From Alistipes sp. (lineage in GTDB: Bacteria; Bacteroidota; Bacteroidia; Bacteroidales; Rikenellaceae), in contig JAFTOU010000016.1 of the NCBI GenBank assembly GCA_017463615.1, positions 338,395-402,394 on the forward strand: a stretch of 64,000 nt of DNA, given 5' to 3'. The position numbers and the translations under genes were made by a program. Numbering within the stretch: position 1 is the stretch's first letter; each line of letters opens with the position of its first letter. Shown piece by piece: positions 6,278 to 25,068 of this stretch. The notes under the pieces were generated by a model. The model had not been told where the DNA came from. It did no database searches and was given only the letters and a program-made list of their open reading frames with translations.

Positions 6278-7486
6278 ATGAAACAGTATAGCGAAAACAA
6301 CTTTGAGCAGTGTACCAAGTGTACCGTTTGTACCGTTTACTGCCCCGTAGCGGCGGTAAATCCGCTCTATCCAGGCCCTAAGCAGGCGGGTCCCGATGGC
6401 GAGCGTCTGAGAATGAAGAGCAGCGAGTTCTACGACCAGAGCCTCGCCCTCTGCCTCAACTGCAAGCGCTGCGAGGTTGCCTGCCCGTCCGATGTCCGCA
6501 TTGGCGATATTATCCAGAGCGCGCGCATCAAGCACAGCACCAAGAAGCCTGGCCTGCGCGAGTTTACCCTCGCAAATACCGACCTTGTGGGTTCGGTAGC
6601 CACCGTGGTAGCTCCCGTAGTAAACGCAACCCTCGGACTCAAGCCCGTAAGACATATTGTGGAGGGCGTGATGAACATTGACCACCGCCGCATATTCCCG
6701 AAGTACGCCTTTGGCACCTTTGAGAGCTGGATGCGCAAGCAGCGCAAGGAGCAGGCTCTCTTTGCTAAGCAGGTGGCATACTTCCACGGCTGCTATGTAA
6801 ACTACAACAACCCTCCGCTCGGTCAGGCATTTGTCAAGGTGATGAACGCCTTGGGCTATGGCGTGCAGCTATTGGATAAGGAGAAGTGCTGCGGCGTGGC
6901 GCTGATATCCAACGGTTTTGTGAACAAGGCGAAGAAGCAGGCGCAGGTGAACATCAACTCTATCCGCAAGGCTGCCGTAGAGAACAACCTGCCCGTTGTT
7001 GCAACATCCTCTACCTGCACATTCACCCTGCGCGATGAGTACCACCACCTGCTCGGACTGGACAATGCCGACATCCGCGAGAGCATCAACCTGGCGACAA
7101 AGTTCGTCTACACCCTGCTCTGCGACGGCAACCACACCCTTAAGTTCAACCCCGACGCCGCTCGCATCCGCGTGGCGTATCACAGCCCGTGCCACCTTGA
7201 GCGCCTCGGCTGGACACCATACTCCATTGAGCTGCTGAAACTTATACCAAATGTAGAGCTGGTAAAACTGGAGTCCCAGTGCTGCGGTATCGCCGGCACA
7301 TACGGCTTCAAAAAGGAGAACTACGCCACCTCACAGTCTATCGGCGAGCCACTCTTTAATGCCATTGAGGCCTCAGAGTGCGATATAGTCGCTACCGACT
7401 GCGAGACCTGCAAGTGGCAGATTGAGATGTCTACCACCAAGCGCGTCCTCCACCCAATAGAGATCCTCGCAGCATCGCTGTTGTAA
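6278..7486 (+). CDS. glpC: Anaerobic glycerol-3-phosphate dehydrogenase subunit C
   Basis: This 402-aa iron-sulfur subunit has two [4Fe-4S] cysteine clusters near the N-terminus (CTKCTVCTVYCP and CLNCKRCEVACP). Two CCG domains follow (EKCCGVAL and QCCGIAGTYGF), as in HdrB/GlpC-type quinone-linked proteins. It anchors GlpAB at the inner membrane and hands electrons to menaquinone. It is the last gene of the operon and is followed by a strong terminator. Confidence 0.95.
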   Translation: MKQYSENNFEQCTKCTVCTVYCPVAAVNPLYPGPKQAGPDGERLRMKSSEFYDQSLALCLNCKRCEVACPSDVRIGDIIQSARIKHSTKKPGLREFTLANTDLVGSVATVVAPVVNATLGLKPVRHIVEGVMNIDHRRIFPKYAFGTFESWMRKQRKEQALFAKQVAYFHGCYVNYNNPPLGQAFVKVMNALGYGVQLLDKEKCCGVALISNGFVNKAKKQAQVNINSIRKAAVENNLPVVATSSTCTFTLRDEYHHLLGLDNADIRESINLATKFVYTLLCDGNHTLKFNPDAARIRVAYHSPCHLERLGWTPYSIELLKLIPNVELVKLESQCCGIAGTYGFKKENYATSQSIGEPLFNAIEASECDIVATDCETCKWQIEMSTTKRVLHPIEILAASLL

Positions 7487-7487
7487 T

Positions 7488-7521
7488 AAAAAACCAATTG
7501 TCATTCGGCAATTGGTTTTTT
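7488..7521. terminator. Bidirectional terminator after glpC
   Basis: AAAAAACCAATTG and CAATTGGTTTTTT flank a 7-base loop. T runs on both strands allow it to serve glpC and the convergent DUF4252 gene. Confidence 0.9.
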
Positions 7522-7542
7522 GTTATCCTTCAAGGCTTTTTA

Positions 7543-7959
7543 CTACCTACCTCCCAATAGTTTAGGCATCTGGCTTAACTCTATATTCTCCCCCGCAAGG
7601 CAGACGAGCGTTGCGCTCTTTGCTCCATGGGTATATATAACAACAATTTTATTAGATTGGCTATAGATATTTACATTGTTCCCGCTATTTGCAACCGCCA
7701 TAATACGCTTCATATTAGCCACATACGCCTCGGCATCAGCATTAAAAGAGGGTAAGAGCTCCGCATCCTCAACAGTTATTGCCCTCAGGCTATCTATACC
7801 ACCACTAACACCCATAGCCTTAAGCGCCTCACGCGACAATTCTACAGTAGTAAAGCCCTGCTTATTGGAGTACTTTGCAAACATCTCCGAGAAGTTTGCG
7901 TTCTGTGCCATAGCCACAAAGGGTAATAGCATCAGTATAAGTAACATTATTCGTCTCAT
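7543..7959 (-). CDS. DUF4252 domain protein
   Basis: This 138-aa secreted protein starts with a signal peptide (MRRIMLLILMLLPFVAMAQ). The body (NFSEMFAKYSNKQGFTTVELS and a later KIVVIYTHGA) resembles the Bacteroidetes-specific DUF4252 family, whose function is unknown. It closes an operon of sigma factor, anti-sigma, barrel protein and DUF4252, and lies 12 bp after the barrel gene. DUF4252 proteins often occur next to ECF sigma/anti-sigma pairs, so a role in the envelope response controlled by that sigma factor is plausible but inferred. Confidence 0.8.
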   Translation of the reverse strand: MRRIMLLILMLLPFVAMAQNANFSEMFAKYSNKQGFTTVELSREALKAMGVSGGIDSLRAITVEDAELLPSFNADAEAYVANMKRIMAVANSGNNVNIYSQSNKIVVIYTHGAKSATLVCLAGENIELSQMPKLLGGR

Positions 7960-7971
7960 AGCGCAACCCGT

Positions 7972-8802
7972 TTAGAAGTAAAAGCCCATACCTGCCGAGA
8001 CTCTATTTGCCGAGACATTGCTCGCCTTTTTGTACATATTCATCGGCGAGTAGTTCACAAAGGCGTATATTCTGCGCCAGCCTATCCTACCCGTAACACC
8101 CACCTGCACGGGGTTGAGCGGCAGAGTACCCTCAATAGTCGTCTTTGGCCTCTTATATGTCAGGCGGGAGGCGCAGAGTATATCAAGCGACGCGCCCGCG
8201 GAGATAAAGAAGCCCTTGCGGATATTGAAGTCAAAGAGCAGCGGGATATGGATATAGTCTACCAACATCTTAGACTTCTTAATGCTCTGGTCTAACTCCA
8301 CAAGCTCAAAGTTACCGCTATTATACTTAAGCGATACATCGCCATCAAAGGTGTAGTTCTCCATAGCAAAGCCGAAGCCCATACTAAAGCAGACTGTTCG
8401 CTTGGCACTGAGCGGCACATTCATAGTCATCAGGTTGATAGTCACATTCACCGCCTTGCGATTGCTAAAAGCCAGCGCCGCAGCCACCTCGTCGCTACAG
8501 CTGCTAAAGTCGGTATTTGCAACAAAATTACTACCTATCTCAATGAGTGCCAAGTGGTTATAACTCGGTGCATCTATGCCCGCAAAGCCGAAGTGCACCT
8601 TGCCAGCACTCTTGCTATTAGCGCTCTTTGCCGTTCCGTCCGAGCCGAAGATAAAGTTCATACCCGCGATGTTAATCGCCAGATTGCCATCCTCCGCCTT
8701 AACGGTACTCTCGCCCTTGCTATCCAGTGGTAGCTCCTGCGCCGAGGCGCTACCGAGCAGTGTCAGAAGTAGTAGTGTTGTAAAAAATCGTCTCATATCC
8801 AC
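7972..8802 (-). CDS. Outer-membrane beta-barrel protein (PorT-like)
   Basis: This 276-aa protein has a signal peptide ending in ASAQ. The rest alternates hydrophobic and polar residues and ends in an aromatic (SAGMGFYF), the usual signature of an outer-membrane barrel. Strand-like segments such as MGFGFAMENYTF and HIPLLFDFNIRKGFFISAGASL fit the small-barrel superfamily found next to ECF sigma factors in Bacteroidales. The anti-sigma gene ends where this one begins, so translation is probably coupled. The specific function is unknown. Confidence 0.75.
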   Translation of the reverse strand: MDMRRFFTTLLLLTLLGSASAQELPLDSKGESTVKAEDGNLAINIAGMNFIFGSDGTAKSANSKSAGKVHFGFAGIDAPSYNHLALIEIGSNFVANTDFSSCSDEVAAALAFSNRKAVNVTINLMTMNVPLSAKRTVCFSMGFGFAMENYTFDGDVSLKYNSGNFELVELDQSIKKSKMLVDYIHIPLLFDFNIRKGFFISAGASLDILCASRLTYKRPKTTIEGTLPLNPVQVGVTGRIGWRRIYAFVNYSPMNMYKKASNVSANRVSAGMGFYF

Positions 8803-13323: not shown

Positions 13324-14184
13324 ATGAAAAGATTTTTGAAGATCGCAGCATTTGCTGCACTGCTCTTCTCAACCGACTTCGCTACAGCTCAGAGCAAGGT
13401 TGAGGACTACCCAACCATCCAGTTCTTTGCTCACCGCGGTAGCCGCTTTGAGTATGACGAGAACACTATGAAGGCATTTAAGGAGGCTTATGCTCGCGGT
13501 GCTCGCGGCTTTGAGACCGATGTTCGTATGACCGGCGATGGCGACCTTATCCTCAGCCACGACGAGTCTCTCTACCGCACCTGCGGCGTAGATGTTCAGA
13601 CCGAGGATCTGACTACAAAGCAGTGCCTTAAGATTAAGACTAAGGCTGGTAACGACCTTGCACTCTGCCAGGAGCTTGCAGACTTCCTTGCTGATAAGGA
13701 GAATATGTACATTGAGTGGGAGATTAAGACTATCCCTGAGCTCTACACCCAGGCTATGCTTGACGACCTTTGCGAGAAGCTCTGGAATATGACCATGACT
13801 CAGAAGCCAGCATCTTCACTCTACCTCTTCACCTCTTTTGACAAGCGCGCCCTGAACACCATGAAGCGCCTGCACCCAGAGGCTGAGATGATGCTGCTCA
13901 AGAGCAAGCCAGCATCTCCAGAGATTCTTATGGAGGCTTACAATATGGGCATTATGCGCGTAGGTTGTAAGATGGACGGCACTACCCGCTCAACTATCCG
14001 CTTGGGCCATAAGCTGGGTATGATTGTATCCCTCTGGCCAGGAAACAACAAGGAGGACTTCTTCCTCGGCGCTGCTCTGGGTTGCGATGCAATGTGCTGC
14101 GACCGCTTCTTTGAGGTTGGCGATTGGGCAGAGAAGAACCTCCCATTCGTAAAGATTAAGGGTTACGAGAAGCCTCAGAAGTAA
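13324..14184 (+). CDS. Secreted glycerophosphodiester phosphodiesterase
   Basis: This 286-aa GDPD-family enzyme has a signal peptide (MKRFLKIAAFAALLFSTDFATAQ). The TIM-barrel signature starts at FFAHRGSRFEYDENTMKAFKEAYARG and continues with ETDVRMTGDGDLILSHDESLYRTCG, which supplies the two catalytic histidines and the metal-binding acidic residues. It hydrolyses glycerophosphodiesters to glycerol 3-phosphate plus an alcohol, probably in the periplasm. The product could feed GlpABC (3443-7486). It appears monocistronic. Confidence 0.92.
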   Translation: MKRFLKIAAFAALLFSTDFATAQSKVEDYPTIQFFAHRGSRFEYDENTMKAFKEAYARGARGFETDVRMTGDGDLILSHDESLYRTCGVDVQTEDLTTKQCLKIKTKAGNDLALCQELADFLADKENMYIEWEIKTIPELYTQAMLDDLCEKLWNMTMTQKPASSLYLFTSFDKRALNTMKRLHPEAEMMLLKSKPASPEILMEAYNMGIMRVGCKMDGTTRSTIRLGHKLGMIVSLWPGNNKEDFFLGAALGCDAMCCDRFFEVGDWAEKNLPFVKIKGYEKPQK

Positions 14185-14208
14185 TCTGCGACTGAGAAGT
14201 CTCGCAGA
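14185..14208 (+). terminator. Hairpin directly after the glycerophosphodiesterase gene
   Basis: TCTGCGA and TCGCAGA pair around a short loop immediately after the stop codon. There is no T run, so termination is more likely at the second hairpin. Confidence 0.4.
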
Positions 14209-14215
14209 CAATGTG

Positions 14216-14252
14216 ATTGACCCCAAAAGTTTTAAAAACTCTTGGGGTCAAT
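14216..14252. terminator. Terminator between the glycerophosphodiesterase gene and the tubulin operon
   Basis: ATTGACCCCAA pairs with TTGGGGTCAAT, with an AAAGTTTT-rich upper part. It separates the two convergent units and marks the downstream edge of the AT-rich operon. Confidence 0.7.
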
Positions 14253-14313
14253 TGTAATAATCATAAAGAACTATAGTTCTACTTTTACTATTTATGTAGT
14301 TAGTCAAAAACAC

Positions 14314-14610
14314 TTATTTAAAGTCAAAACCGAATATTTTCCCTCTCCTTCGCCACTCTTCATCATCTCGTTCAAACTGATCAAGCGTCTGTTCTGTACT
14401 AGATATAAACGAGTCTGTCTTATCAAGCAGTGCCGCAGTCCGCAATCTCAACTCTATACGCTGGCGTACAAACACCAACTCATTGGCTGTCGCGCCAATT
14501 GTTCGAGCAACTTTCTCTACACAACTATTAGTTGCGTCTAACTTCACGTCACAACCATCGATTAACTTATCAAGTTGTTTTTGTCTATCTGTTAAATTAT
14601 TCCAAGCCAT
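14314..14610 (-). CDS. 98-aa helical protein at the end of the tubulin operon
   Basis: I do not recognise the family. The protein (MAWNNLTDRQKQLDKLIDGC) is soluble, highly charged and predicted almost wholly helical. Heptad-like spacing between residues 1 and 60 suggests coiled-coil assembly. It follows the membrane transglutaminase gene by 38 bp in the same direction and shares the low GC of the operon, so it is probably an accessory or scaffold part of the same system. Confidence 0.6.
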   Translation of the reverse strand: MAWNNLTDRQKQLDKLIDGCDVKLDATNSCVEKVARTIGATANELVFVRQRIELRLRTAALLDKTDSFISSTEQTLDQFERDDEEWRRRGKIFGFDFK

Positions 14611-14648
14611 AGTTATTTTTATTTATTCGTTTTATTATGCTTACAAAT

Positions 14649-16127
14649 CTAATTTACTATATAACCTATCACTCCCCAATATGAGCCACCATCATCCAAT
14701 TGAACATAAAGGCACATCTTCCCCGACTGAGGTATTATTGTCATTGAATACATATTATCACTATCAACATGCCACTCATTATACCATTCATCATTATTTA
14801 CAATTGCCCATTTTATACCAGACAAAGGGTAAAAACTGAATGTATATGGGCATCCCGACTTTAGAATTCTACTCATCGGAACCGACACAACCTTCAATCG
14901 TTTCTCGTCATTGATATAAATATCTGGAAGTTCTCTAATTTTCTCAGCGCGAATAACCTTCAATAGTTCCTTGGGGCAAATACCAGCAGCTTCCCAAGTA
15001 TCTGGACGCAAATTCTTCACACCTTTCACATCTGGCACACACATGGGATAATATTGTTCAACCTTTTCCCAATCTCTCTCATCTGGCTCATCGACAACAT
15101 ACTCCATAAAAGAGTAAAATGAATTTTCTCCATTCTCCTTTACTCCAAGTACCACACTTGATTCATTCCTAGGCATAAACGAGATTGAATAAGTATCATC
15201 CCCACAAAGTTCCCATTCTTCTTTGTTAATATACAAGTCTTTATTCACCAGTACAAGTTCAACATCCCGGTTCATTAGCTTTATAGTTATTCGGTAGAAC
15301 TCTCCGATTGACAAAGATTTACTCTTTGGCAAATCTACAATCTTAATATCTCCAGCTGCAGAAGAATACAACTTTGGCAGACTTAATGGATTGCCTTTAA
15401 TGGCAGAGTTATAGGCCTCATCAACACTCAAGCCATAATCTACATATGCTTCATCTATTGAGGGCACAGATTGAAACTGCTCAAGACTCATATCTCTATC
15501 GAGCAATTGATACTGTTCTTCATCAGGATAATGAGACAAAATCATCCACTTCGGATCAACATTAAACCAATGTAAATGATTATCGCTCTTCTCAAAAGTC
15601 CCCGAGTCATCTACGCTACCAGCGCCCCATGTGGGATCCAATAGTATACCGTGATTTTTTCGTGTGTATGCAAAAATCCAAGCGTGCCCCTCTTCTCTAA
15701 GCATCCCATTCTTGTCCTTAGTTTTTCCAACAACTATTTCAGATCTAATTCCAATAGAGTTGGCCATGTGATAAAACAACTCTGTGTAAGCAGCACATAC
15801 TCCTTTCCTGCAATCATAACATCTATCAGCTCGATAAATTTCATATGATGTATCATACTCAATATTATCACACAACCACAAATAGATTGCCCGAATCCTA
15901 TCATAGTCAGTATCGCAACCCTCCGTGACACTTCTTGTCAACTTGGAGTAATCATATCGCGTATCATACGACCTCAACTCTTTATTAGGTTTCTTGAAGT
16001 AATCGTCATACTCTGCTGCATCATCCTTAAAGAATATAGAATACAAAAGGTAAAACACTACTGCGCAAAGAGCGATAACGGCAGATATTACTAAAACATC
16101 AAGTACTCTAGCAATTAATCTCCACAT
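14649..16127 (-). CDS. Membrane-anchored transglutaminase-like protein
   Basis: This 492-aa protein has one N-terminal membrane helix (about residues 8-32), so the rest should be periplasmic. A transglutaminase-like domain follows with a complete Cys-His-Asp triad: C111 in GVCAAY, H148 in EGHAW and D164 in LLDPTWG. The remaining 300 residues hold repeated beta-rich segments, in which LPKLYSSAAGDI, ELPDIYINDEKRL and similar stretches recur. Such domains act as proteases, amidases or cross-linkers. The domain is clearly paralogous to the C-terminus of the 959-aa protein encoded just upstream (shared DPTWGAG and WFNV.P.WMI.SH.PD), so one likely arose from the other. Substrate unknown. Confidence 0.75.
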   Translation of the reverse strand: MWRLIARVLDVLVISAVIALCAVVFYLLYSIFFKDDAAEYDDYFKKPNKELRSYDTRYDYSKLTRSVTEGCDTDYDRIRAIYLWLCDNIEYDTSYEIYRADRCYDCRKGVCAAYTELFYHMANSIGIRSEIVVGKTKDKNGMLREEGHAWIFAYTRKNHGILLDPTWGAGSVDDSGTFEKSDNHLHWFNVDPKWMILSHYPDEEQYQLLDRDMSLEQFQSVPSIDEAYVDYGLSVDEAYNSAIKGNPLSLPKLYSSAAGDIKIVDLPKSKSLSIGEFYRITIKLMNRDVELVLVNKDLYINKEEWELCGDDTYSISFMPRNESSVVLGVKENGENSFYSFMEYVVDEPDERDWEKVEQYYPMCVPDVKGVKNLRPDTWEAAGICPKELLKVIRAEKIRELPDIYINDEKRLKVVSVPMSRILKSGCPYTFSFYPLSGIKWAIVNNDEWYNEWHVDSDNMYSMTIIPQSGKMCLYVQLDDGGSYWGVIGYIVN

Positions 16128-16146
16128 ATCAATCTACCCCATTGAG

Positions 16147-19026
16147 TTAAATATCCGAAAGTTCTTCAAACAAGGCATCTTTTCCATCATTATCTTCCGA
16201 AGGTTGTTTATACGGAAGCCTCCTAAACTGCTCTTCTGTAATCCGAATATCAAGCTTGGTCCAATATTGCAAATCAGGGAAATGACTGTAGATCATCCAA
16301 GATGGCGAAACATTAAACCAAACCGAGTTATCATCATGTTTTATAAACTTTCCATTATCAACACACCCAGCGCCCCATGTTGGATCAATCAAAAGCCCGG
16401 CGTATGCATTAGTATAAACAAATATCCATGAGTGCTTACTATCTGAGACTGTACCATCAGAAATCTTAACCTTGCCCGTGATGATATCGGCGGTCAAGCC
16501 AATAGCATCTGCCAAATAACAGAACATTTCACAGTATGCCCAACAAACACCTCTTCTTGATCTCAAGCAGGTATCTGCATCTTGAATTTGCTTTGTGGTG
16601 TCATACTCAATATTCTCGCATAGCCAATTGTAAATACATCGCGCCTTTTTCTCTACAGTATCTGCTGTGCTATCAATAATCTCTGACAGTAGGCCTGTTA
16701 AATCCGTACGCAACCTGCTTAATTTAGCCTCCCTCTTAGGTTTAAAGTCCTTAATTGCATCTATATGGTCTGGGATATTCAACACCTGTACCACACAAAG
16801 AGAGTTTACAAAATCACAAGGACATTGAGGGACTATAGACTCAGTTCCCACCTCGTAACGCGCTCTAAATTCCGTAGGCTCTATTATAACATTCTGGTTA
16901 TTTGAGAAAAAGCCAATACTTACATTAGATGCAAGATTATTCTCCCGAATACGAATATATTCAACAAACGGTTTCGACTGCGTGATATTATACTCAATAA
17001 TCCGATGTAGATCCTGATCTGTCAACATCTCCTTTACAAATGGATTACTCCCATCCCACTTAAGAGTATGATACTTCCCCACAAGTGGATCTAAGACCTG
17101 ATGTTTGATAAGTTCAAGCATAGTCATCCTATTATCAGGTTCAGCAGTGGCATCAAACCATCTACACAGAAATCTATCTATCATTTCCGCGTAATATCTA
17201 TGGGAATCTCGAAACTTACGAACAAGTTCCATGTCTATCAAGGAAATTGACTTAATATGCCATTTAGGTCGATAGCCTTCCTTCCCCAATACATACTGAC
17301 CACTAACATTTTTTTCACCATCCATGAGTAGTATGCACTCTCTCCTACGCGCCTCATAGTTCTCAATCATCTCTGTAAGATGGCTCCACCAATCGCGAAC
17401 TTCATCTACCCGCTTCAGTTCCGCAATGCACTTATTCAACTTTGTTGCAATATCTTCACGAATTTGTTCTGATATCAGAGCTGGCGAATCCAATAGCAAA
17501 GCTCCAAACAAGGTATTTGGGCTCGCATCTTTCTTTCTTTTATTAAAGAATGAGAAAAAACATGTCAAACAACCTGTTCTTTCAGGCAAATCATCTAACG
17601 ACTTCTGTTGAATCATCTCGGCCTCAACAGGCAGCTCCTCGGCTCGTCCCACATTTAGCATTGTGTTCACCGGGTAGTTCTGTGGCAATTCGTCGGCAAC
17701 TGTCGCCCTATCCACAGCATACCTCATTGTTTTGATTCCCTCATCTGATTTAAGATATTCAACCAGCGAGTCAATTTGTTGATAGTGGGAGCTATAATTC
17801 TCTTCATCCTCCTCGGTCACTCTTACACAATGCCCATAATTCTCACAGAACTCATCTGCATCAATAAATGTATTTTTGCAAATATTTTCCTCGTGATCTT
17901 CAATTTGCGCTTGGTAATCTGCAATACTATCCTTTAGCTGAGATATCTCAACCTGGGCTGCCAAAATCTGAGTTGGGTCAAGCGTCAATAAAGAACTTTC
18001 AAGCGCTGCTATTTCAGCCTCCTTTTGCTTAATCTGAATATTTAGGTTTGATATCTCTCGTTTTTCCTCACTAATATAGAGCTTAAGAAATGAATTCAGA
18101 TATGTCGCAATCTGCTGTTCCTGACGAGAAACAGAATATTCATTATCAACAAGTAGTTTTGCAGGATTCCACTGAGCAGTACAATACAAATTCCATCTCT
18201 CCCATATTGAGCGAAGACCATCTAACCATTGCAAGCCTAAATCTATCTTTTTGTAATAGTTATAGTCTATGAGCTTCTGTGTATCCAATGACGGAGCTGC
18301 ATTTAGCGCTCTATTGAGCAATCGTTCCTCCGCAGAAAGTCTAAAAAAATCGTTAAGATCGCAGAAATCATACTGATGCTCAGACATGCCAATAGAGTAA
18401 ATACCAGAACCTACAGTCGTTTTAGGATTATCATCTCCTGAGCATACCAATTTTGACCAATAACAGAGAAACTTCGCAAGCAAATTCGAATTCAAACTAG
18501 TTGCAGCTCCCATATAGTCCATATTATTGATATACAAAATATCTGTACGGAAACGATTGTCCACCTCAAGTCCTCGTAAAGATTCAAGAAGCTTCCAATG
18601 CGGGCGAATAGTAACATCCTCAGGCTTATTTATGTCATATCCGATAAGGACAATATCAATATGAAGCCCGAGCATCATTGCGCCGCCAATTTCGCGCAAC
18701 TCCTCACACACCATTCGCAAAGTTTCGCCATGCTCTTCTTCAAGGCACTGTGACACTATAAAAACATTGGGCACAACGCCACTAGGAATTAGATTCTTAA
18801 AATGAGAGATCTGATTAGTTAATGCTTTATGTAACGCTATCGGCTCATCGCTCTCATTTATTTTATCACCCGCATTATCGTAAATATCCCAACGATAGTG
18901 AAGGCCATCTACCTCCTTAACAATACATCCAGATGTTATGACATTGTGTTGTAGGTGAGCATTTTTAATCTCACCTACAACATCTTGAATGTCATTATTG
19001 GCACCTATGACAATAAAATAAGCCAT
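16147..19026 (-). CDS. 959-aa tubulin-partner protein with C-terminal transglutaminase-like domain
   Basis: This large soluble protein has no signal peptide or membrane helix, so it should be cytoplasmic. Residues 1-320 form an alpha/beta domain starting MAYFIVIGANNDIQDVVGEI that I cannot assign. A coiled coil of about 60 residues follows (REISNLNIQIKQKEAEIAAL onward), then a mixed region. The C-terminal transglutaminase-like domain has the triad C (RRGVCWAY), H (SKHSWIF) and D (LIDPTWG). The gene lies six bases after the tubulin-like gene, which strongly suggests a physical partnership. The coiled coil could be an adaptor for the GTPase or its filaments. The function is inferred from context only. 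Confidence 0.7.
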   Translation of the reverse strand: MAYFIVIGANNDIQDVVGEIKNAHLQHNVITSGCIVKEVDGLHYRWDIYDNAGDKINESDEPIALHKALTNQISHFKNLIPSGVVPNVFIVSQCLEEEHGETLRMVCEELREIGGAMMLGLHIDIVLIGYDINKPEDVTIRPHWKLLESLRGLEVDNRFRTDILYINNMDYMGAATSLNSNLLAKFLCYWSKLVCSGDDNPKTTVGSGIYSIGMSEHQYDFCDLNDFFRLSAEERLLNRALNAAPSLDTQKLIDYNYYKKIDLGLQWLDGLRSIWERWNLYCTAQWNPAKLLVDNEYSVSRQEQQIATYLNSFLKLYISEEKREISNLNIQIKQKEAEIAALESSLLTLDPTQILAAQVEISQLKDSIADYQAQIEDHEENICKNTFIDADEFCENYGHCVRVTEEDEENYSSHYQQIDSLVEYLKSDEGIKTMRYAVDRATVADELPQNYPVNTMLNVGRAEELPVEAEMIQQKSLDDLPERTGCLTCFFSFFNKRKKDASPNTLFGALLLDSPALISEQIREDIATKLNKCIAELKRVDEVRDWWSHLTEMIENYEARRRECILLMDGEKNVSGQYVLGKEGYRPKWHIKSISLIDMELVRKFRDSHRYYAEMIDRFLCRWFDATAEPDNRMTMLELIKHQVLDPLVGKYHTLKWDGSNPFVKEMLTDQDLHRIIEYNITQSKPFVEYIRIRENNLASNVSIGFFSNNQNVIIEPTEFRARYEVGTESIVPQCPCDFVNSLCVVQVLNIPDHIDAIKDFKPKREAKLSRLRTDLTGLLSEIIDSTADTVEKKARCIYNWLCENIEYDTTKQIQDADTCLRSRRGVCWAYCEMFCYLADAIGLTADIITGKVKISDGTVSDSKHSWIFVYTNAYAGLLIDPTWGAGCVDNGKFIKHDDNSVWFNVSPSWMIYSHFPDLQYWTKLDIRITEEQFRRLPYKQPSEDNDGKDALFEELSDI

Positions 19027-19032
19027 AAATAT

Positions 19033-21789
19033 TTAGAATTCAAGTTCTCTTAAATAAACAACTTCTCTTTCAAGAAGATCTCTTACCATTTGGTAAGCCG
19101 CATCCTTCTCTATAACACGCTCACGCTCTATTGTGCTTAGATTTGCGATTTCCAATAAGTATTTTCCATATTCCTCCTGCGCCTTTTTCATCACAGCTAC
19201 AACAGCTGGCCTACCTTGGTCAAGAATCATCTTCTGAATACGGGCTTCAACTTCACTACCAAGTCCGCGAAGTTGGAACTGGTCAAATGCGATATCTCGT
19301 CTCTGCCCCAGTTCAAGAAGTCCTCCTGAAAGAATATCTCCCTGAGATGACTCTATACAGTACGACTTACGCGATTCGTCGTACTTAATAAAGCCATATA
19401 CGATTGCATTTACCCAGTTAGGGAGTACAATATCCTTCTCTTGCTTAGGCATAAGATCAAAATTCTCAACAATCATTCTCTGGTTCCACCTTTCATCCAA
19501 ATAACAAACAGGGCAAGCCTCTGAACTATACTTATCCTCTGCCTCTCTCATATAACCAAGCATATTATTTACAGCAAATGCAGGGCTAAAGCACTGGCTC
19601 TGGAAGAATGTAATTCTATCCGTTTGATGTATACTCTCAAAAATCGGTTTGGTTGCGCCAATCATAAACATATCGCTATAACCACTTTGAATTATACCCT
19701 TAGATTGATTATATACTCCAATGGTAAAGACGGTTGTCAACTCTTGTGCATGATCGAGTTTGCCGTGAGTATCTGTTGACCATAGAGGGCTAGACATCTC
19801 CTTCACCTTATCAAAAATCCTCCTCAGGTCGGCGTCTGTCATTTTACTCAGTCTATGTTCAATGGTCACATTCTTCACATCTGCGACACTCTGCAGGCCC
19901 TTGGCAAAGTTAAATAGCACGGCATCAATAGTTTCTGCAGGCTGATTAATCAACCCCTCGATCGGATGCTCTTTTATAAAGAGAGCCGATGTTTCTGCCA
20001 CATCTGGCAAAACAAAGTCGTTCACATCATCTGAATGTAAGAAAATCTGGAATTTAGAAGGCGTTTTAGCAGCCTGCTGAATAGTAGTAATTGCATTCAC
20101 ATTCTTCTTCTGTATAGCTTCTACATTTGCCTTAAGAACAGTTATTTGACTCAAGATGGAACAAACATACTGGTCAAAATCAGTAAAGAACTGAATTGCT
20201 TTTTGATGTCTTAATAAATCTCGTTTCTGGGCAATATACTCCTCAACTTTATTCTGCAATGCAACAGCTGCATCTCTATTAAATATTGACAAGATACCAG
20301 TTCTTAGATCAGAGATATCAGCACTCCAGTCTACATTATATGCGAGTTTCTTCTGGAGATCGCCAACTTCTTTGACCATCTCATCTTTACAAAGCGTAAT
20401 ACTAGTCTGCAGAGCTTCTAGAAACGCCTGCGCCAACCCTACACCCTGTAGGCTATTAAGAATTATCCGAATTTTTTCATCAAGTTTACTTTTTACATTT
20501 GCAAGTTTAGTCTCTACATTATCATCTGCTTCCTCACTCACATTTGCTGCCTCAGCTCCAGCTGTAATATTTGCTTTAATTGTATTTACATCTGCAGTCC
20601 TATCTATTATAACACTAAATGGGGCCCTATATGCAAGGATGCTATCTATAAGCAGATTAGCATCATGCTCTTGAATCGCCACTGCATCGCTCTCCATCCA
20701 AGTATTTACAGTCTTCAATGTAGCTATTGGGTCTGGCTTAGATAGTTGTTCTTTGCAGATTTGTGCCACAATACCATGAGCAACCACATTTCCAACCGCT
20801 TTATTGTCATACACGATCTCTGCGCTACCAGCCGAAGAATAAAACGCCTTCTTATTCTTAATACTATAATATCCTTTATCAATATTATCTTTAACACTAT
20901 CTAGTTCGCCTGATGGAAGGAACATACAGCGGCCTATAGAATCCGTAATCTCATCTACAGTTTGCAATACAACACCCATCTTATTCCTGTTGTTTATAAG
21001 ATACGCATCTCTAACACCTTCGTCAAGATAGTACACATTTGCAAAACCGAAATCAAGTGCATTCTGATTATCATATGGCAGATGGTATAGATAGTCTAAC
21101 TCCCTAATTGCGCCATATGCATTTTGATACACATTTGCAGTAGCAGGTCCATTTACCATATTACGGAATACTTCTGGTAATACAATCCAAGGTGTAATAG
21201 AATATGGATGTCCCAGCTCTCTAAGGGTTTTTGCCACAAGAACAATAATATCCAACATAGTACCACTCCCCGTACCCCCGGCAACAGAACCAACGATATT
21301 GACCTTGGTAGGATATTCCACCCCATCCTTATTTGTATCATACGCGAATTTACATCCTACTGGCAGAGGCGCGCAAATTTCACTCACCTTGCTAGCCACA
21401 CGCGCACTAATATCTGTAGCATTATGCCTAGCAAGGAAGCGACCATTGCTTCTTATTTGACCAGCTCCAGTATTCATTAGATTGGACAGGAACTGAGAGT
21501 TTCTTCTTGGGAGCCACTGGAACTGCGAAAGATGATTGCGATATATTTCAAGCGCACTACCGACAATCCCGCAAAAACACAGCTCATTTTCCGACAGTTT
21601 TACCTCTTTTCCCATTCTTGATAGGACAGACTTATTTCGAATCCCCCTATCGGTATCAATCGCAAGAAATGCCACCATTGGAGGGACCTCTCCATACGCA
21701 TCCACGAAACACTGTTTCGTACGAAGAATTGACTTAACACCAGTACCACCTAAACCCACATAAAGGGTTCTTGTAATTTTAATTGACAT
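19033..21789 (-). CDS. Tubulin/FtsZ-superfamily GTPase (Tubulin_2-like)
   Basis: This 918-aa protein has the nucleotide-binding loops of the tubulin superfamily: an N-terminal glycine loop YVGLGGTGVKS (residues 10-20) and the signature GSVAGGTGSGTMLDI (167-181). The acidic AIDTD (43-47) fits the ribose-binding loop. It is far longer than FtsZ (about 400 aa) and carries a large helical insert or C-terminal extension (about 400-560 is rich in coiled-coil-like sequence), as in the Tubulin_2 group. That group has been proposed to act in membrane remodelling. It lies between a membrane VWA gene and a coiled-coil/transglutaminase gene. Filament formation is likely by family but not shown. Confidence 0.85.
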   Translation of the reverse strand: MSIKITRTLYVGLGGTGVKSILRTKQCFVDAYGEVPPMVAFLAIDTDRGIRNKSVLSRMGKEVKLSENELCFCGIVGSALEIYRNHLSQFQWLPRRNSQFLSNLMNTGAGQIRSNGRFLARHNATDISARVASKVSEICAPLPVGCKFAYDTNKDGVEYPTKVNIVGSVAGGTGSGTMLDIIVLVAKTLRELGHPYSITPWIVLPEVFRNMVNGPATANVYQNAYGAIRELDYLYHLPYDNQNALDFGFANVYYLDEGVRDAYLINNRNKMGVVLQTVDEITDSIGRCMFLPSGELDSVKDNIDKGYYSIKNKKAFYSSAGSAEIVYDNKAVGNVVAHGIVAQICKEQLSKPDPIATLKTVNTWMESDAVAIQEHDANLLIDSILAYRAPFSVIIDRTADVNTIKANITAGAEAANVSEEADDNVETKLANVKSKLDEKIRIILNSLQGVGLAQAFLEALQTSITLCKDEMVKEVGDLQKKLAYNVDWSADISDLRTGILSIFNRDAAVALQNKVEEYIAQKRDLLRHQKAIQFFTDFDQYVCSILSQITVLKANVEAIQKKNVNAITTIQQAAKTPSKFQIFLHSDDVNDFVLPDVAETSALFIKEHPIEGLINQPAETIDAVLFNFAKGLQSVADVKNVTIEHRLSKMTDADLRRIFDKVKEMSSPLWSTDTHGKLDHAQELTTVFTIGVYNQSKGIIQSGYSDMFMIGATKPIFESIHQTDRITFFQSQCFSPAFAVNNMLGYMREAEDKYSSEACPVCYLDERWNQRMIVENFDLMPKQEKDIVLPNWVNAIVYGFIKYDESRKSYCIESSQGDILSGGLLELGQRRDIAFDQFQLRGLGSEVEARIQKMILDQGRPAVVAVMKKAQEEYGKYLLEIANLSTIERERVIEKDAAYQMVRDLLEREVVYLRELEF

Positions 21790-21814
21790 ATTAAAAAAAT
21801 TTTAAGGTTATTTA

Positions 21815-23620
21815 TTAGTTTATGTTTATTATCGTATTGCTCTTAATCTCAGTAATAGTAGAGGCTCCAATTTGAGGCATTGGATTGGGATTAATCCAAT
21901 AAGCGCCGCCCTGAGACACTGCAAGAATGCATCCTCCACGACTCGGTTTAAAAATCATCGGAGTTGCAAACGCTGAGTGGGTTACATATAATATCTTCCC
22001 CTTCAGAGCTCGATCAACCCAAGACTGCTTTTTCTGATGATTTGCTGCAATCACCACCATTCTCACACCTCTAAATCTAATGATAACAGGGGCTAATCCT
22101 CGAGCACTCAGTGTTTTTTGAATGGCTCCAAACCTCGGAAAGAACACAGGTCTAAGAACTGTAAACCAAAGAAGTAGTGCCACAACTAGAAGGCCCAATA
22201 TACAAGTAAGCCCTAACTTAATTGGGTTCCATCGTTCTTCAAATCTGAAGTTCCACCTAAATACATCAGGGGAACCATTTATCAAACAATTATCAAGTTT
22301 TGAAGGGATTAGCTCTATTCTACCGTAATATTTACCCTCCTGGCTCATATCATGCCCGATGATAGATAATTTAAGATTCGTGACATCTGGAGTTATCTTG
22401 AACGAATCACCCTTTATCTCATCCCCATTAATAAATAGCTTGAAGTTCTGTGACGATAGGTTCAGCATCCCTTCCCCCGCTTTATTAACAAGGTAAACTT
22501 TCATAATCGCCGACGAGCCGTCAACTTTAGCTTGTTCACTAAAATTCACTTTAATATTAGACTCTGCAGGAGTATACGCCTCTTCTGAGATTTTGCCAAA
22601 AGAACCATAATACGACGCTTCGCCAAAGTTTTTATCCTTTATATCAAGACTCAAGCTACGTTCTGGGATGTTAACAACCTCGCAGAAAATTGCATCCGGT
22701 CCTACAAAAGTATAAGAGTCATGTCCTTCAAGTTTGGGCGACAACTTTATAGTATGTTTAATCGGCGGAGTTATACCCTCCTTACACCTAACCTCAAATG
22801 CTATTTTCTCATCTCTAATATCTCTATCAGAACATAAAACTTCATAATATTGATCATCGTATACCAATCGCAGAGTGCCCTTTGCATCCTTGCAATTATA
22901 ACCCTTTAACTCAATAGTCTTAGCTCCCTTATCATCCCTTACATTATACTTAAGGTATGTGGGCAGAGTGGCTGTTTTTATACGCACTTTGGCATCTGGG
23001 ACAATCCAAAAATGGGGCTGGTTTTCTATTGCATCTCTAATATACGGTTTATCCGCGTCCTGATGTACAAGTACATAAAAGCCATATGCATTTTTCCCTC
23101 GGGTCAAATTTATCCAAGAGTTTATAGTTGGAACCAACTCTGGTTTTGTCCCTTGATGATCATTTTCTCCATCTGTAAAAAGAAACATATACTTGATTTT
23201 ATCACCTCTAAGATATGTATAAAACTTCTTTATTGGAGCAACAATATTTGTATTCTTATGGGGTATATACTTGTATTTTGTAACAAATTCCACCAAATAT
23301 TCCTTCCCCGCAGATGATGCTTTTTGCGTTTCTACCGTTCTTATATCATCTTGGAAAGCGATAATGGTTATCTCATTACTGGGGTCATCTTCTACATATT
23401 CTATACATTCTATTATCGCTTTCTTGAGTTCCACCCACAACCCATTTCCATCCGAATATGTTTTCAGATCAGTACCATCAAGATCTTTCATCCCTGGTTG
23501 CTTAGGCAGGAGTGAGCCTGTAACATCCCACAATATCACAATATGCGCTCCGTCTTGAGCATTAGCATTAAAAAACACACTCAGACACAAGAATAACGCT
23601 GCTACTAATTTAAACTTCAT
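21815..23620 (-). CDS. Membrane-bound von Willebrand factor A protein
   Basis: This 601-aa protein has a signal peptide ending ANA. A VWA domain follows (about residues 24-230) whose metal-ion site reads DVTGS (32-36), a variant of DxSxS. Beta-rich extracytoplasmic domains follow, then one membrane helix (CILGLLVVALLLWFTVL, about 475-495) and a cytoplasmic tail of about 110 residues. It is therefore built to bind a ligand outside and signal or attach inside, next to the tubulin-like GTPase encoded 25 bp downstream. Its ATG overlaps the stop of the truncated radical SAM gene (ATGA), so translation is coupled. Confidence 0.85.
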   Translation of the reverse strand: MKFKLVAALFLCLSVFFNANAQDGAHIVILWDVTGSLLPKQPGMKDLDGTDLKTYSDGNGLWVELKKAIIECIEYVEDDPSNEITIIAFQDDIRTVETQKASSAGKEYLVEFVTKYKYIPHKNTNIVAPIKKFYTYLRGDKIKYMFLFTDGENDHQGTKPELVPTINSWINLTRGKNAYGFYVLVHQDADKPYIRDAIENQPHFWIVPDAKVRIKTATLPTYLKYNVRDDKGAKTIELKGYNCKDAKGTLRLVYDDQYYEVLCSDRDIRDEKIAFEVRCKEGITPPIKHTIKLSPKLEGHDSYTFVGPDAIFCEVVNIPERSLSLDIKDKNFGEASYYGSFGKISEEAYTPAESNIKVNFSEQAKVDGSSAIMKVYLVNKAGEGMLNLSSQNFKLFINGDEIKGDSFKITPDVTNLKLSIIGHDMSQEGKYYGRIELIPSKLDNCLINGSPDVFRWNFRFEERWNPIKLGLTCILGLLVVALLLWFTVLRPVFFPRFGAIQKTLSARGLAPVIIRFRGVRMVVIAANHQKKQSWVDRALKGKILYVTHSAFATPMIFKPSRGGCILAVSQGGAYWINPNPMPQIGASTITEIKSNTIININ

Positions 23621-23973
23621 AATATGATTGATTTATTATTAAAAATCTCTCTCGACACAAATGAACTTATTGTACCGTTTGTACTGCCAAAAAATTTATA
23701 GGGCCTATTCCACGACCCTCGCTCCACCCATTCAACAAGAGGGCGAATAACATCAATAGCCAGAAGAGTCTCTCCTCCCATAAATGCGATATCAAGTCTA
23801 CCACCAGTTCTCATTAGAAATCGTTCAATGATAGACTTGACCATATCAAACGACATATCCTTGTCACGTTTTGTTCGAACATAACAATACCTGCAGTTAA
23901 GATTACAGCGATATGTTGTAAGCAATCCTACTGCTTCACCGCTCATTTCATCCAGACAATCTTTCCTATCCAT
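23617..23973 (-). CDS. Truncated radical SAM protein
   Basis: This 118-aa protein has the radical SAM cluster motif CNLNCRYC (cysteines 23, 27 and 30), the SAM-binding GGE motif (FMGGETLL) and STNGT. It ends after the first half of the barrel; normal peptide-modifying radical SAM enzymes have 350 or more residues and a SPASM domain. The stop overlaps the VWA start codon. It follows a 69-aa Gly/Tyr-rich peptide gene by two bases, the arrangement of a RiPP precursor and its maturase. Either the enzyme lost its 3' half when the operon was assembled, or this is a reduced form with another role. Radical SAM membership is sure; activity is doubtful. Confidence 0.75.
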   Translation of the reverse strand: MDRKDCLDEMSGEAVGLLTTYRCNLNCRYCYVRTKRDKDMSFDMVKSIIERFLMRTGGRLDIAFMGGETLLAIDVIRPLVEWVERGSWNRPYKFFGSTNGTISSFVSREIFNNKSIIL

Positions 23974-23975
23974 AA

Positions 23976-24185
23976 CTAACCTGGATAAGAACCATAACTA
24001 TAGTTACAGTCCGTTGCACCTTGATAGCCATGTCGCGTTGGGTACATCTTACGGCCATAAGCAACGGTTGCAATTGATCTTGTTCGCTGGTCCCCTTTAG
24101 CTCGCTCAATCAAGACACTTATCTCTGTATTAGATATATCAAGCACTCTTTTCATAGCAATAAACTCAGCCCTTATTATTGTCAT
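23976..24185 (-). CDS. 69-aa peptide, possible RiPP-like precursor
   Basis: The first gene of the operon codes for MTIIRAEFIAMKRVLDISNT, a charged middle, and a C-terminus rich in Gly, Tyr and Ser (HGYQGATDCNYSYGSYPG). A charged helical leader followed by a small-residue and aromatic core just before a radical SAM gene is the usual layout of ribosomal natural-product precursors. An alternative start at Met11 would leave 59 aa. The family is not recognised. GGAG nine bases upstream of the first ATG supports the longer form. Confidence 0.55.
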   Translation of the reverse strand: MTIIRAEFIAMKRVLDISNTEISVLIERAKGDQRTRSIATVAYGRKMYPTRHGYQGATDCNYSYGSYPG

Positions 24186-24200
24186 CTAATAGGCTCCGTA

Positions 24201-24221
24201 GCACAAGTTCTATAAAAGAAC
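24201..24221 (+). repeat. Left inverted repeat of the switch
   Basis: This 21-bp repeat lies in the 5' leader of the operon, 15 bp upstream of the first start codon, so it remains in place whichever way the promoter points. Confidence 0.85.
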
Positions 24222-24235
24222 TTTTAACCTATACG

Positions 24236-24269
24236 CAAAGATATAATAAAAAGTTTGAATTAAAGCAAA
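24236..24269 (-). promoter_or_regulatory. Promoter of the tubulin operon, inside the invertible segment
   Basis: TATCTTTG on the minus strand (24236-24243) is a perfect -7 box. TTTG lies at 24266-24269, a spacing of 22 bp rather than 19, so the promoter may be moderate or use a weaker -33. The predicted start is near 24229, just inside the left repeat. Confidence 0.6.
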
Positions 24270-24437
24270 TCTAGACTAATTATTTTTCAGCCCTTTTCTC
24301 CCAAAGTCTATTTTATAAGGATTTGTTTTTAGACTACAATTCGTTATCCGTGTATCTCTTGCTGTATTTTTGGAGAGTTTAGATATCTATCCGCTGATTA
24401 TACTTCTAAGTTATAATCATCAAACATCTTGACACAA

Positions 24438-24461
24438 AAGCATTTATGTGTGAAATGCTTC
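24438..24461. other. Hairpin within the invertible segment
   Basis: AAGCATTT and AAATGCTT flank a 7-base loop. Nothing else is recognised in the 24270-24512 interval, which is very AT-rich and non-coding. Confidence 0.4.
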
Positions 24462-24512
24462 AAATGCTAAAAATTAATTATATAGTTACCAATCGTTTCA
24501 GAAGGAGGTTGT

Positions 24513-24533
24513 GTTCTTTTATAGAACTTGTGC
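24513..24533 (-). repeat. Right inverted repeat of the switch
   Basis: This is the exact complement of 24201-24221. The bases outside the two repeats do not match, so there is no target-site duplication of the kind left by a transposon. Confidence 0.85.
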
Positions 24534-24566
24534 CCTTTGTCTAGAATCTTTAATAGATATTCCAAC

Positions 24567-24604
24567 AAAAAAAGCACCGCTACAGTTTGTGGCGGTGCTT
24601 TTTT
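24567..24604. terminator. Terminator of the SusC/SusD operon
   Basis: GCACCGC and GCGGTGC are flanked by A and T runs on both sides. It ends the nine-gene operon transcribed from 39480 and insulates it from the tubulin operon. Confidence 0.9.
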
Positions 24605-24618
24605 GTCTGTGCGGTGCG

Positions 24619-25068
24619 CTACTGAATATCCTCGGGTAGGGAGTCGGCGCGGACATAGACCGAGACATTCTCGCTATCGTCCTTAGCCGTCCAGCGCATG
24701 TGGGTGGCGGTAAGCTCTACGATATAACGGTGCGACCAGTCAAAGTAGTTATACTCGTCGGTGCCGTAGTTGCCACGAATTACTGCGCCGAGAGCAGAGT
24801 CTACCTCTATAAAGTAGTTGCCCGTAATGGTCTGGGTGTACATACTACCCACATTCTGATAGAGGGTATAACTGCGGTCAGAGCGCTCAAAATTGATATA
24901 GACAAATGCCCCATCGGCAAGCGTTGCGCCATTGTCGTAGCTCTCAAGCATCCACAGCCCCGCGATATTTGTCGGGGTGACATCCAACAGAGGCTCTGAG
25001 GCCTCGTTACTCTGATTGTTGCAGCAGCAGAGTGTCAGCGCTGCAAAGAAAATTGCAATGTATCTCAT
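24619..25068 (-). CDS. Lipocalin-like lipoprotein
   Basis: This 149-aa protein has a lipoprotein signal (MRYIAIFFAALTLCCCNN). The mature part (IAGLWMLESYDNGATLADGAFVYINFERSDRSYTLYQNVG, then TITGNYFIE) reads as a small eight-stranded lipocalin-like barrel of the Bacteroidetes type. It is the last gene of the SusC/SusD operon, one base after the DUF1573 stop, and probably sits on the outer membrane. The ligand is unknown. Confidence 0.65.
   Translation of the reverse strand: MRYIAIFFAALTLCCCNNQSNEASEPLLDVTPTNIAGLWMLESYDNGATLADGAFVYINFERSDRSYTLYQNVGSMYTQTITGNYFIEVDSALGAVIRGNYGTDEYNYFDWSHRYIVELTATHMRWTAKDDSENVSVYVRADSLPEDIQ

Follow-up and report, generated by a model that had tools for sequence, protein, structure and literature searches.

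A stretch of 64,000 nucleotides from Alistipes sp. (assembly GCA_017463615.1, contig JAFTOU010000016.1, positions 338,395 to 402,394; called the window below) carries an operon of seven genes which encodes, among others, a putative sensor with a VWA-like domain, a tubulin-like GTPase of the FtsZl1 type (Tubulin_2) and a large scaffold protein ending in a transglutaminase-like cysteine enzyme. Our preferred reading, held at a probability of about 0.45, is that of a mobile, probably phase-variable relay from the envelope to the cytoplasm, of the FtsZl1/VWA kind and with a cysteine enzyme as its output. The GTPase and VWA core is already known from work published in 2010 (PMC2875224), whereas the scaffold with its appended transglutaminase-like domain and the exchange of the enzyme between loci are new. 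The first-pass annotation, made by a model from the letters of the window, had taken the whole combination to look new; the pairing of GTPase and VWA genes is known from PMC2875224 and recurs in the predicted conflict systems of PMC7159879. The exchange of the enzyme, like the empty insertion site and the inverted repeats described below, had been overlooked.

The operon core and its changing cysteine enzyme

The seven open reading frames (98, 492, 959, 918, 601, 118 and 69 amino acids in ascending coordinate) lie on the minus strand with spacings of 38, 19, 6 and 25 bases in the same order, followed by a 4-base overlap and a gap of 2 bases, in agreement with the positions, lengths and tiny gaps first described. 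With this close spacing and one promoter-like site ahead of them, the genes form an operon. The first domain assignments also stood, with Pfam finding Tubulin_2, two Transglut_core domains and Radical_SAM, and with a sub-threshold VWA match backed by motifs and relatives. The extent from 14314 to 24185 holds for the seven genes, but the true unit is the insert of about 14188 to 24557, which includes the inverted-repeat segment. The features are as follows:

14188 to 24557, no strand: inserted block with approximate borders, about 10.4 kb, between a GDPD-like gene (13324 to 14184) and a lipoprotein gene (24619 to 25068)
14217 to 14251, no strand: hairpin-like palindrome 3' of the last gene, a possible terminator (by eye; the T run is not clear)
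14314 to 14610, minus strand: 98-amino-acid protein, the operon's last gene (open reading frame list; no family above cut-off)
14649 to 16127, minus strand: 492-amino-acid membrane-anchored transglutaminase-like protein (Pfam, hydropathy, Cys111/His148/Asp164)
16147 to 19026, minus strand: 959-amino-acid protein, a putative scaffold (about 1 to 760) with a C-terminal transglutaminase-like domain (Pfam, Cys828/His865/Asp881)
19033 to 21789, minus strand: 918-amino-acid Tubulin_2 (FtsZl1-type) GTPase (Pfam, GTP loops)
21815 to 23620, minus strand: 601-amino-acid putative sensor with a VWA-like domain (Pfam, hydropathy, motifs, relatives)
23617 to 23973, minus strand: 118-amino-acid frame, the 5' part of a radical SAM maturase gene whose remainder is absent (motifs CxxxCxxC and GGE kept)
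23976 to 24185, minus strand: 69-amino-acid Gly/Tyr-rich open reading frame, the operon's first (open reading frame list; no family)
24201 to 24533, no strand: putative invertible promoter segment, with 291 bp between two perfect 21-bp inverted-repeat arms (24201 to 24221 and 24513 to 24533)
24236 to 24269, minus strand: Bacteroidetes-type promoter-like site (TTTG, 22 bases, TAnnTTTG) facing the operon (pattern match)

The 918-amino-acid protein matches Tubulin_2 at E 1.3e-46 (159.9 bits against a curated cut-off of 27) and has the GTP-binding glycine loops GLGGTG (12-17) and AGGTGSG (170-176). All counts below refer to 15 loci, namely the window and every relative that searches with the GTPase or its alignment recovered at nearly full length (L009-L013, L052, L053, L111-L113 and L115-L118). 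Partial or remote matches such as L014, L028-L036, L054-L061, L114 and L119, which have other neighbours wherever these were inspected, do not enter the count, and neither do the second GTPase copies of genomes G028 and G1093. In the GTPase tree all 15 fall into a single clade (100/100), apart from four remote Tubulin_2 proteins that have different neighbours; one of the remote rows sits on a very long branch, and the papain group described below is weakly supported (69/63). The first GTP-loop pattern is present in all 15 and the second in 13, L116 and L118 showing no match to it.

In the window and in all 14 relatives the gene beside that of the GTPase encodes a large third protein, so that the first-pass annotation's check on the co-occurrence of homologues came out in its favour. 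The enzyme carried by this protein changes from locus to locus: it is a papain domain in 11 loci, a transglutaminase-like domain in two and neither in two. The papain domain lies centrally (PF00112, E 3.6e-17 to 1.1e-20 in the four of the 11 proteins run against Pfam) and keeps the residues Q541, C547, H693 and N711 (L010 numbering) in all 11. In the window and in L009, papain matches are absent and a transglutaminase-like domain stands at the C-terminus (Transglut_core E 3.7e-13 in the 959-amino-acid protein), with Cys828, His865 and Asp881 also found in L009. Papain and transglutaminase-like enzymes are two families of the papain-like fold. Predicted catalytic residues are intact wherever an enzyme domain is present. 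The first-pass annotation had named the loss of GTPase and catalytic residues in relatives as evidence against a working system, and this check too went in its favour, apart from the second GTP-loop pattern not found in two of the 15.

Profile comparison across the enzyme types (HHalign) gave collinear matches for the N-terminal part (E 5.7e-5) and the C-terminal part (E 1.6e-4, the C-part profile being made without L053), against E 0.23-0.64 for reversed sequences and 0.011-0.58 for unrelated segments. The accompanying probabilities are moderate (66% and 51%), and the trimmed ends were picked after full-length comparisons (E 0.0016, probability 16%; E 0.00049, probability 32%) had pointed there. 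The case for scaffold homology across the enzyme types is good but not conclusive, and our reading is that of a single scaffold which would hold the papain domain within it in one group and has the transglutaminase-like domain appended in another. The third protein of L052 is collinear with window residues 1 to about 760 and ends where the transglutaminase-like domain would start, while that of L053 can be aligned with the papain type (E 0.0011-0.0021), fails to align with the transglutaminase type (E 0.053-0.17) and is therefore included in the count mainly by position; neither has a Pfam domain. The N-terminal scaffold part also compares with tubulin at E 0.011-0.053, better than reversed controls (0.39-0.64), but the aligned places differ between the two runs, and a degenerate tubulin is not claimed for it.

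The 601-amino-acid protein matches VWA_2 at E 0.0048, under the curated Pfam cut-off, and the assignment is also backed by D-x-T-x-S and TDG motifs and by its relatives. Upstream of the GTPase, 14 of the 15 loci, the window among them, encode a VWA protein; the VWA-part profile, built from five rows including the window, matched 13 open reading frames at E <= 1.3e-13 and found none at L112. The VWA part and the transmembrane part are two genes in most relatives and one gene in the window, L010, L052 and L053. C-terminal to the transmembrane helix lies a short cytoplasmic domain that is alignable in all 14 rows tried, and a protein with a similar cytoplasmic end is present at L118, which stands outside that alignment.

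Hydropathy supports the topology across the inner membrane that had first been proposed. The VWA protein has a signal-peptide-like stretch (3-21) and a probable transmembrane helix (471-489), the 492-amino-acid protein has one N-terminal hydrophobic stretch (8-26), and the GTPase and the 959-amino-acid protein have none, so that the former two would act outside and the latter two inside. A rival explanation is an envelope-building or membrane-remodelling machine, in which the GTPase would form a dynamic scaffold along the inner membrane, partners outside would be held by the VWA protein and the enzymes would trim or cross-link a surface structure. Membrane remodelling is the published prediction for FtsZl1/VWA operons (PMC2875224), and the second transglutaminase-like protein with its N-terminal hydrophobic stretch argues in the same direction. 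Against it stand the locus-varying enzyme, whose carrier protein in the window has no predicted signal peptide, and the Pfam scan, which matched no outer-membrane protein family among the seven proteins. We regard this machine as a serious rival and a real, if minority, possibility.

A second divergent GTPase lies beyond the third protein at L013 (4841-7075) and L118 (2611-4086), where GLGATG and GLGEVG replace GLGGTG, as if some systems worked with a GTPase pair. A second type of Tubulin_2 neighbourhood in Bacteroidota (L030, L054, L055, L057-L059 and L114; GTPase of 755-1058 amino acids) has a protein that looks zinc-ribbon-like by eye and several signal-peptide proteins nearby. Small lipoproteins that look alike by eye occur close to VWA or GTPase genes that belong to different subtypes, at L113 (4558-5112), L117 (6261-6689) and L055 (10839-11288).

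Insertion site and putative invertible promoter

The block is AT-rich relative to both sides, as first noticed: its GC content is 0.389, whereas the flanking 10 kb have 0.523 and 0.535 on the two sides, and the GC minimum of the window for stretches of block length starts at about 14200 (steps of 200). Insertion was assessed at 29 loci of the genus with the genes right of the block, in four of which the GDPD-like gene lay within the fetched flank. Three of these are empty sites, with the GDPD-like and lipoprotein genes adjoining without the block (L131 in G036, where only the end of the GDPD-like gene is visible, L133 in G027 and L134 in G956); the fourth, G028 (L130/L166), lacks the block too and has the GDPD-like gene and a small neighbour inverted. 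DNA similarity to the empty sites stops near 14188 and restarts near 24557-24592, around a common terminator-like hairpin, and no target-site duplication was seen at the borders. Of four further loci fetched more widely, two have other single genes in the gap, L163 (G879, 1029 amino acids) and L164 (G906, 282 amino acids), and no GDPD-like gene was seen in the stretches of L165 and L167. The interval between the lipoprotein gene (24619) and the GDPD-like gene (14184) is a variable site in the genus, being empty, rearranged or differently occupied.

The GTPase alignment matches nine of 180 genomes of the genus, eight of them over almost full length. The closest relative found is L009 in a Prevotella metagenome-assembled genome (66% identity for the GTPase, 57% for the 959-amino-acid protein), and the GTPase tree groups it with the window at 100/100, apart from the other copies of the genus. 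Because the block is inserted, rare in the genus, nearest to a Prevotella copy and placed with it in the tree, this is the pattern of a horizontally acquired block that would be mobile between genera. As for cargo of a phage or plasmid, this was rejected, since the GTPase search led to only three plasmid records (Thermus, Meiothermus and Allomeiothermus, 28-30% identity) and to no confirmed viral contig among its protein matches, with one unannotated phage-labelled record at 26.5% identity. This record, MT836542.1 (Tubulin_2-like match at 6934-8133), is short, comes from human faeces and may be mislabelled bacterial DNA.

An inserted block may also be decaying foreign DNA without present function, and a truncated radical SAM gene in the operon and a broken relative of the 492-amino-acid gene in G010 are what such decay might leave behind. 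The core genes are, however, open with their motifs intact, and the promoter-like site faces them. Relative to the Prevotella copy, non-synonymous divergence (dN) is 0.24 for the GTPase, 0.34 for the 959-amino-acid protein and 0.63 for the C-terminal VWA part, while synonymous divergence (dS) is not computable, as expected at saturation. Decay is on this evidence highly improbable.

Directly upstream of the operon, separated by 15 bases from the first start codon (24185), lies the operon-side arm of the inverted repeats, whose arms are 100% complementary; shuffling the window 100 times gave a mean of 0.00 matches. The pattern used for the enclosed promoter-like site follows the Bacteroidetes promoter consensus, and this is its sole match in the segment on either strand, among 8 across the window against 0.68 expected. 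As the site points into the operon and the opposite strand is without a match, the window would show the ON orientation, and the inverted repeat around the site is probably an ON/OFF switch.

The repeat core AAGTTCTnnnnAAGAAC occurs at three other places in the genome, on contigs C10, C58 and C67 and each time less than 150 bases from a contig end, while a backwards control had no matches. The C58 and C67 sites border lipoprotein gene clusters that are fimbrillin-like by eye. With the core beside such surface-gene-like clusters, the promoter of this operon may be inverted by a host recombinase that also acts on surface genes. The same placement counts for the envelope machine as well, in which phase variation would serve surface variation. 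Palindromic AAGTTCTTATCAAGAACTT-like sites were seen at the contig ends in G000 (C58, 36922; C67, 4988; C10, 123), and these are possibly invertons that broke the assembly. In the parts of PMC10939037 considered, Bacteroidales invertons are described as promoters ahead of an operon that are flanked by inverted repeats. The repeats here resemble these in enclosing a promoter-like site ahead of an operon, but the cargo is a GTPase and cysteine-enzyme system instead of capsule synthesis, and one orientation is known.

Accessory genes of the operon

The 492-amino-acid protein matches Transglut_core at E 2.3e-17, with Cys111, His148 and Asp164, and its domain shares 44% identity with the one in the 959-amino-acid protein. 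Its other relatives are stand-alone genes beside the same neighbours in three of 100 further genomes of the genus (G034, G851 and the broken copy of G010). In a six-row tree of transglutaminase-like domains, the domain of the 492-amino-acid protein groups with the stand-alone ones. Two forks of this tree are open and the row of L092 is very long, so that the tree separates scaffold from stand-alone domains and nothing more. Because its relatives form a stand-alone family of the host genus, the gene was probably recruited locally into the operon. The two Cys-His-Asp enzymes first described as paralogous do have related domains, but one of them looks like a recruit from a family of the host genus.

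The 118-amino-acid open reading frame matches Radical_SAM (E 2.4e-9) with CxxxCxxC and GGE motifs and covers positions 4-112 of the 330 of PapB, its best family, while its best relatives in the genus have 385 and 375 amino acids. It is, as judged from these lengths, a truncated gene reduced to its 5' part, and its stop overlaps with the start of the VWA gene; the operon holds this fragment and no complete radical SAM maturase. The 69- and 98-amino-acid frames have no family above cut-off and gave chance-level matches against the compared loci. The first-pass annotation had seen a pair for a ribosomally synthesised and post-translationally modified peptide (RiPP) in the first two genes, a reading that the truncation leaves weak and without support.

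A RiPP-linked device for killing or signalling, in which a small peptide would be modified by a radical SAM enzyme, handled by the VWA protein and GTPase and trimmed by the cysteine enzymes, would fit with these two frames at the head of the operon. It can also draw on a radical SAM and peptide gene beside another VWA system, described in the parts of PMC7159879 considered, and on L115, where a His-Xaa-Ser set (HxsA, D, B and C) is contiguous with the triad of VWA, GTPase and third protein. Yet the radical SAM gene here is a 5' piece only, and BLAST of the fetched stretches found radical SAM genes at L115 alone among the 14 related loci (a 302-amino-acid protein of L113 also has CxxxCxxC and was not judged radical SAM), so that we consider this device very unlikely. 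The set of L115 (652-5378) lies downstream of a papain-type triad on the same strand, the genes overlapping once and otherwise standing 1-12 bases apart; HxsC, HxsB and HxsD are above the NCBI cut-offs and HxsA is below its own.

Related systems and a possible role

The operon shares with the FtsZl1 (Tubulin_2, PF13809)/VWA operons the GTPase family, a VWA neighbour with signal or membrane segments, the predicted membrane role and a patchy distribution. The parts considered of PMC2875224 (Makarova and Koonin 2010) place FtsZl1 GTPases beside VWA proteins, with membrane remodelling proposed, and include Bacteroides caccae among the species aligned. They describe neither a scaffold with a changing enzyme nor an invertible promoter; protease, peptidase, papain, transglutaminase and radical SAM go unmentioned in the main text, the additional files lying outside this check. 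The P-loop GTPase, kinase and OmpA partners of those operons, which are frequent though not universal, are absent from the seven proteins here.

A second parallel is found in the GAP1-N2 conflict systems (Kaur et al. 2020, PMC7159879), which, in the parts considered, contain tubulin and VWA genes, with effectors fused to GAP1 and peptidases among the effectors of related systems. Common to both would be a tubulin fused to a helical or coiled-coil part, an extracellular VWA domain with a transmembrane segment and a large central protein to which effector domains are joined; the tubulin theme is one of actinobacteria and firmicutes there and of Bacteroidales here. A search for GAP1-M (PF20014) gave no match above cut-off in 14 triad genomes, with two sub-threshold matches, and one in 14 control genomes, and on this result the identity of the scaffold with GAP1 was rejected; GAP1-N and GAP1-C models were covered by the Pfam scans. 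Neither a TRAFAC-type GTPase nor an FNIII protein was found by Pfam among the seven proteins. The operon is not filed under GAP1-N2, as it has no GAP1-M match and no second GTPase, but the triad loci may by analogy still work like these systems. Among open-licence literature, judged by titles and the openings of abstracts, no system of tubulin, VWA and cysteine enzyme was found.

The proposed relay would begin with the periplasmic VWA domain sensing or binding something in the envelope. The signal would cross the inner membrane through the single helix to the conserved cytoplasmic domain, which would set the state of the tubulin-like GTPase, be it assembly or conformation. The GTPase would in turn act on the scaffold, and a papain-fold cysteine enzyme would be held or activated by the latter; in the simplest version, an envelope event changes the GTPase and the enzyme is released or concentrated. 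The enzyme, transglutaminase-like here and papain in most relatives, would then cleave or modify a component of the cell. The likeliest use would be a conflict or stress response at the cost of damage to the cell's own proteins, and the invertible promoter would keep the system OFF in part of the population. Conflict systems likewise exchange their effectors while the core stays constant, and a weapon or alarm that is costly would fit the patchy, mobile and switchable carriage.

Several points weigh against this relay, beyond the rival envelope machine. PADLOC 2.0.0 gave no convincing defence family among the core proteins of the window (over the window, it returned a viperin-like radical SAM match at E 2.2e-8, JetC/LmuB coiled-coil matches at E 0.0036 and 0.012 and PDC-S26 at E 0.63) and none in seven core proteins of relatives at E 0.01. 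Candidate defence genes beside four of the six relatives scanned (L009, L011, L116 and L117) do speak for the relay in a conflict role, but this count comes from 11 neighbour proteins hand-picked at six of 14 loci with no background set and includes some generic families. The third protein lacks a recognisable enzyme in two of the 15 loci (L052 and L053), so the enzyme may be accessory. Rarity in the genus, at nine of 180 genomes, suits conflict systems but equally other accessory functions. Finally, none of the 14 relatives has inverted repeats of more than 12 bp in the 1.5 kb that precede its first assigned gene, and an invertible promoter as a general trait of the family was rejected on this count.

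A known PADLOC system was rejected on these scans of core proteins from the window and relatives. A PDC-S01 candidate (L009, 359-1687, E 7.8e-108) and a CorA/DHH hydrolase candidate (L116, 15827-18133, E 8.9e-114), both of generic families, lie beside triads, and a TIR-domain protein (ThsB-like, E 6.7e-9) lies upstream of the papain-type triad at L117 (2474-3871). At L011 (1269-3477 and 15822-19813), a papain-type triad is preceded by the candidate PDC-S72 (E 4.4e-128) and, as a weak match, by SIR2 (E 0.0066), and repeats read as a repetitive open reading frame together with apparent cas genes, by eye, are downstream; a weak SLATT match (E 0.088) also belongs to this locus. The neighbours scanned at L115 gave HxsB only, as viperin-like, and one weak match, and those at L010 gave no PADLOC match; an EF-G-like GTPase (17075-19228) lies about 0.5 kb downstream of the papain-type triad there.

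A bolder form of the relay, which we think somewhat unlikely, would make these loci trans-envelope 'execution' systems of Bacteroidales, loosely comparable to caspase activation platforms. A VWA receptor would act on the GTPase and this on a scaffold that arms an interchangeable cytoplasmic enzyme, the whole having moved between genera and being switched by inversion here, so that part of the population is armed.

The role of Tubulin_2/FtsZl1, the most divergent of the prokaryotic tubulins, is a matter of prediction in the parts considered of PMC2875224 and PMC7159879. A scaffold that regularly stands beside the GTPase, with an enzyme from two families at two positions, points to an enzymatic output. 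If the relay is real, a tubulin-type GTPase would be tied to regulated proteolysis across the bacterial envelope, and the inverted-repeat promoter together with the empty site suggests how such costly cargo could be carried.

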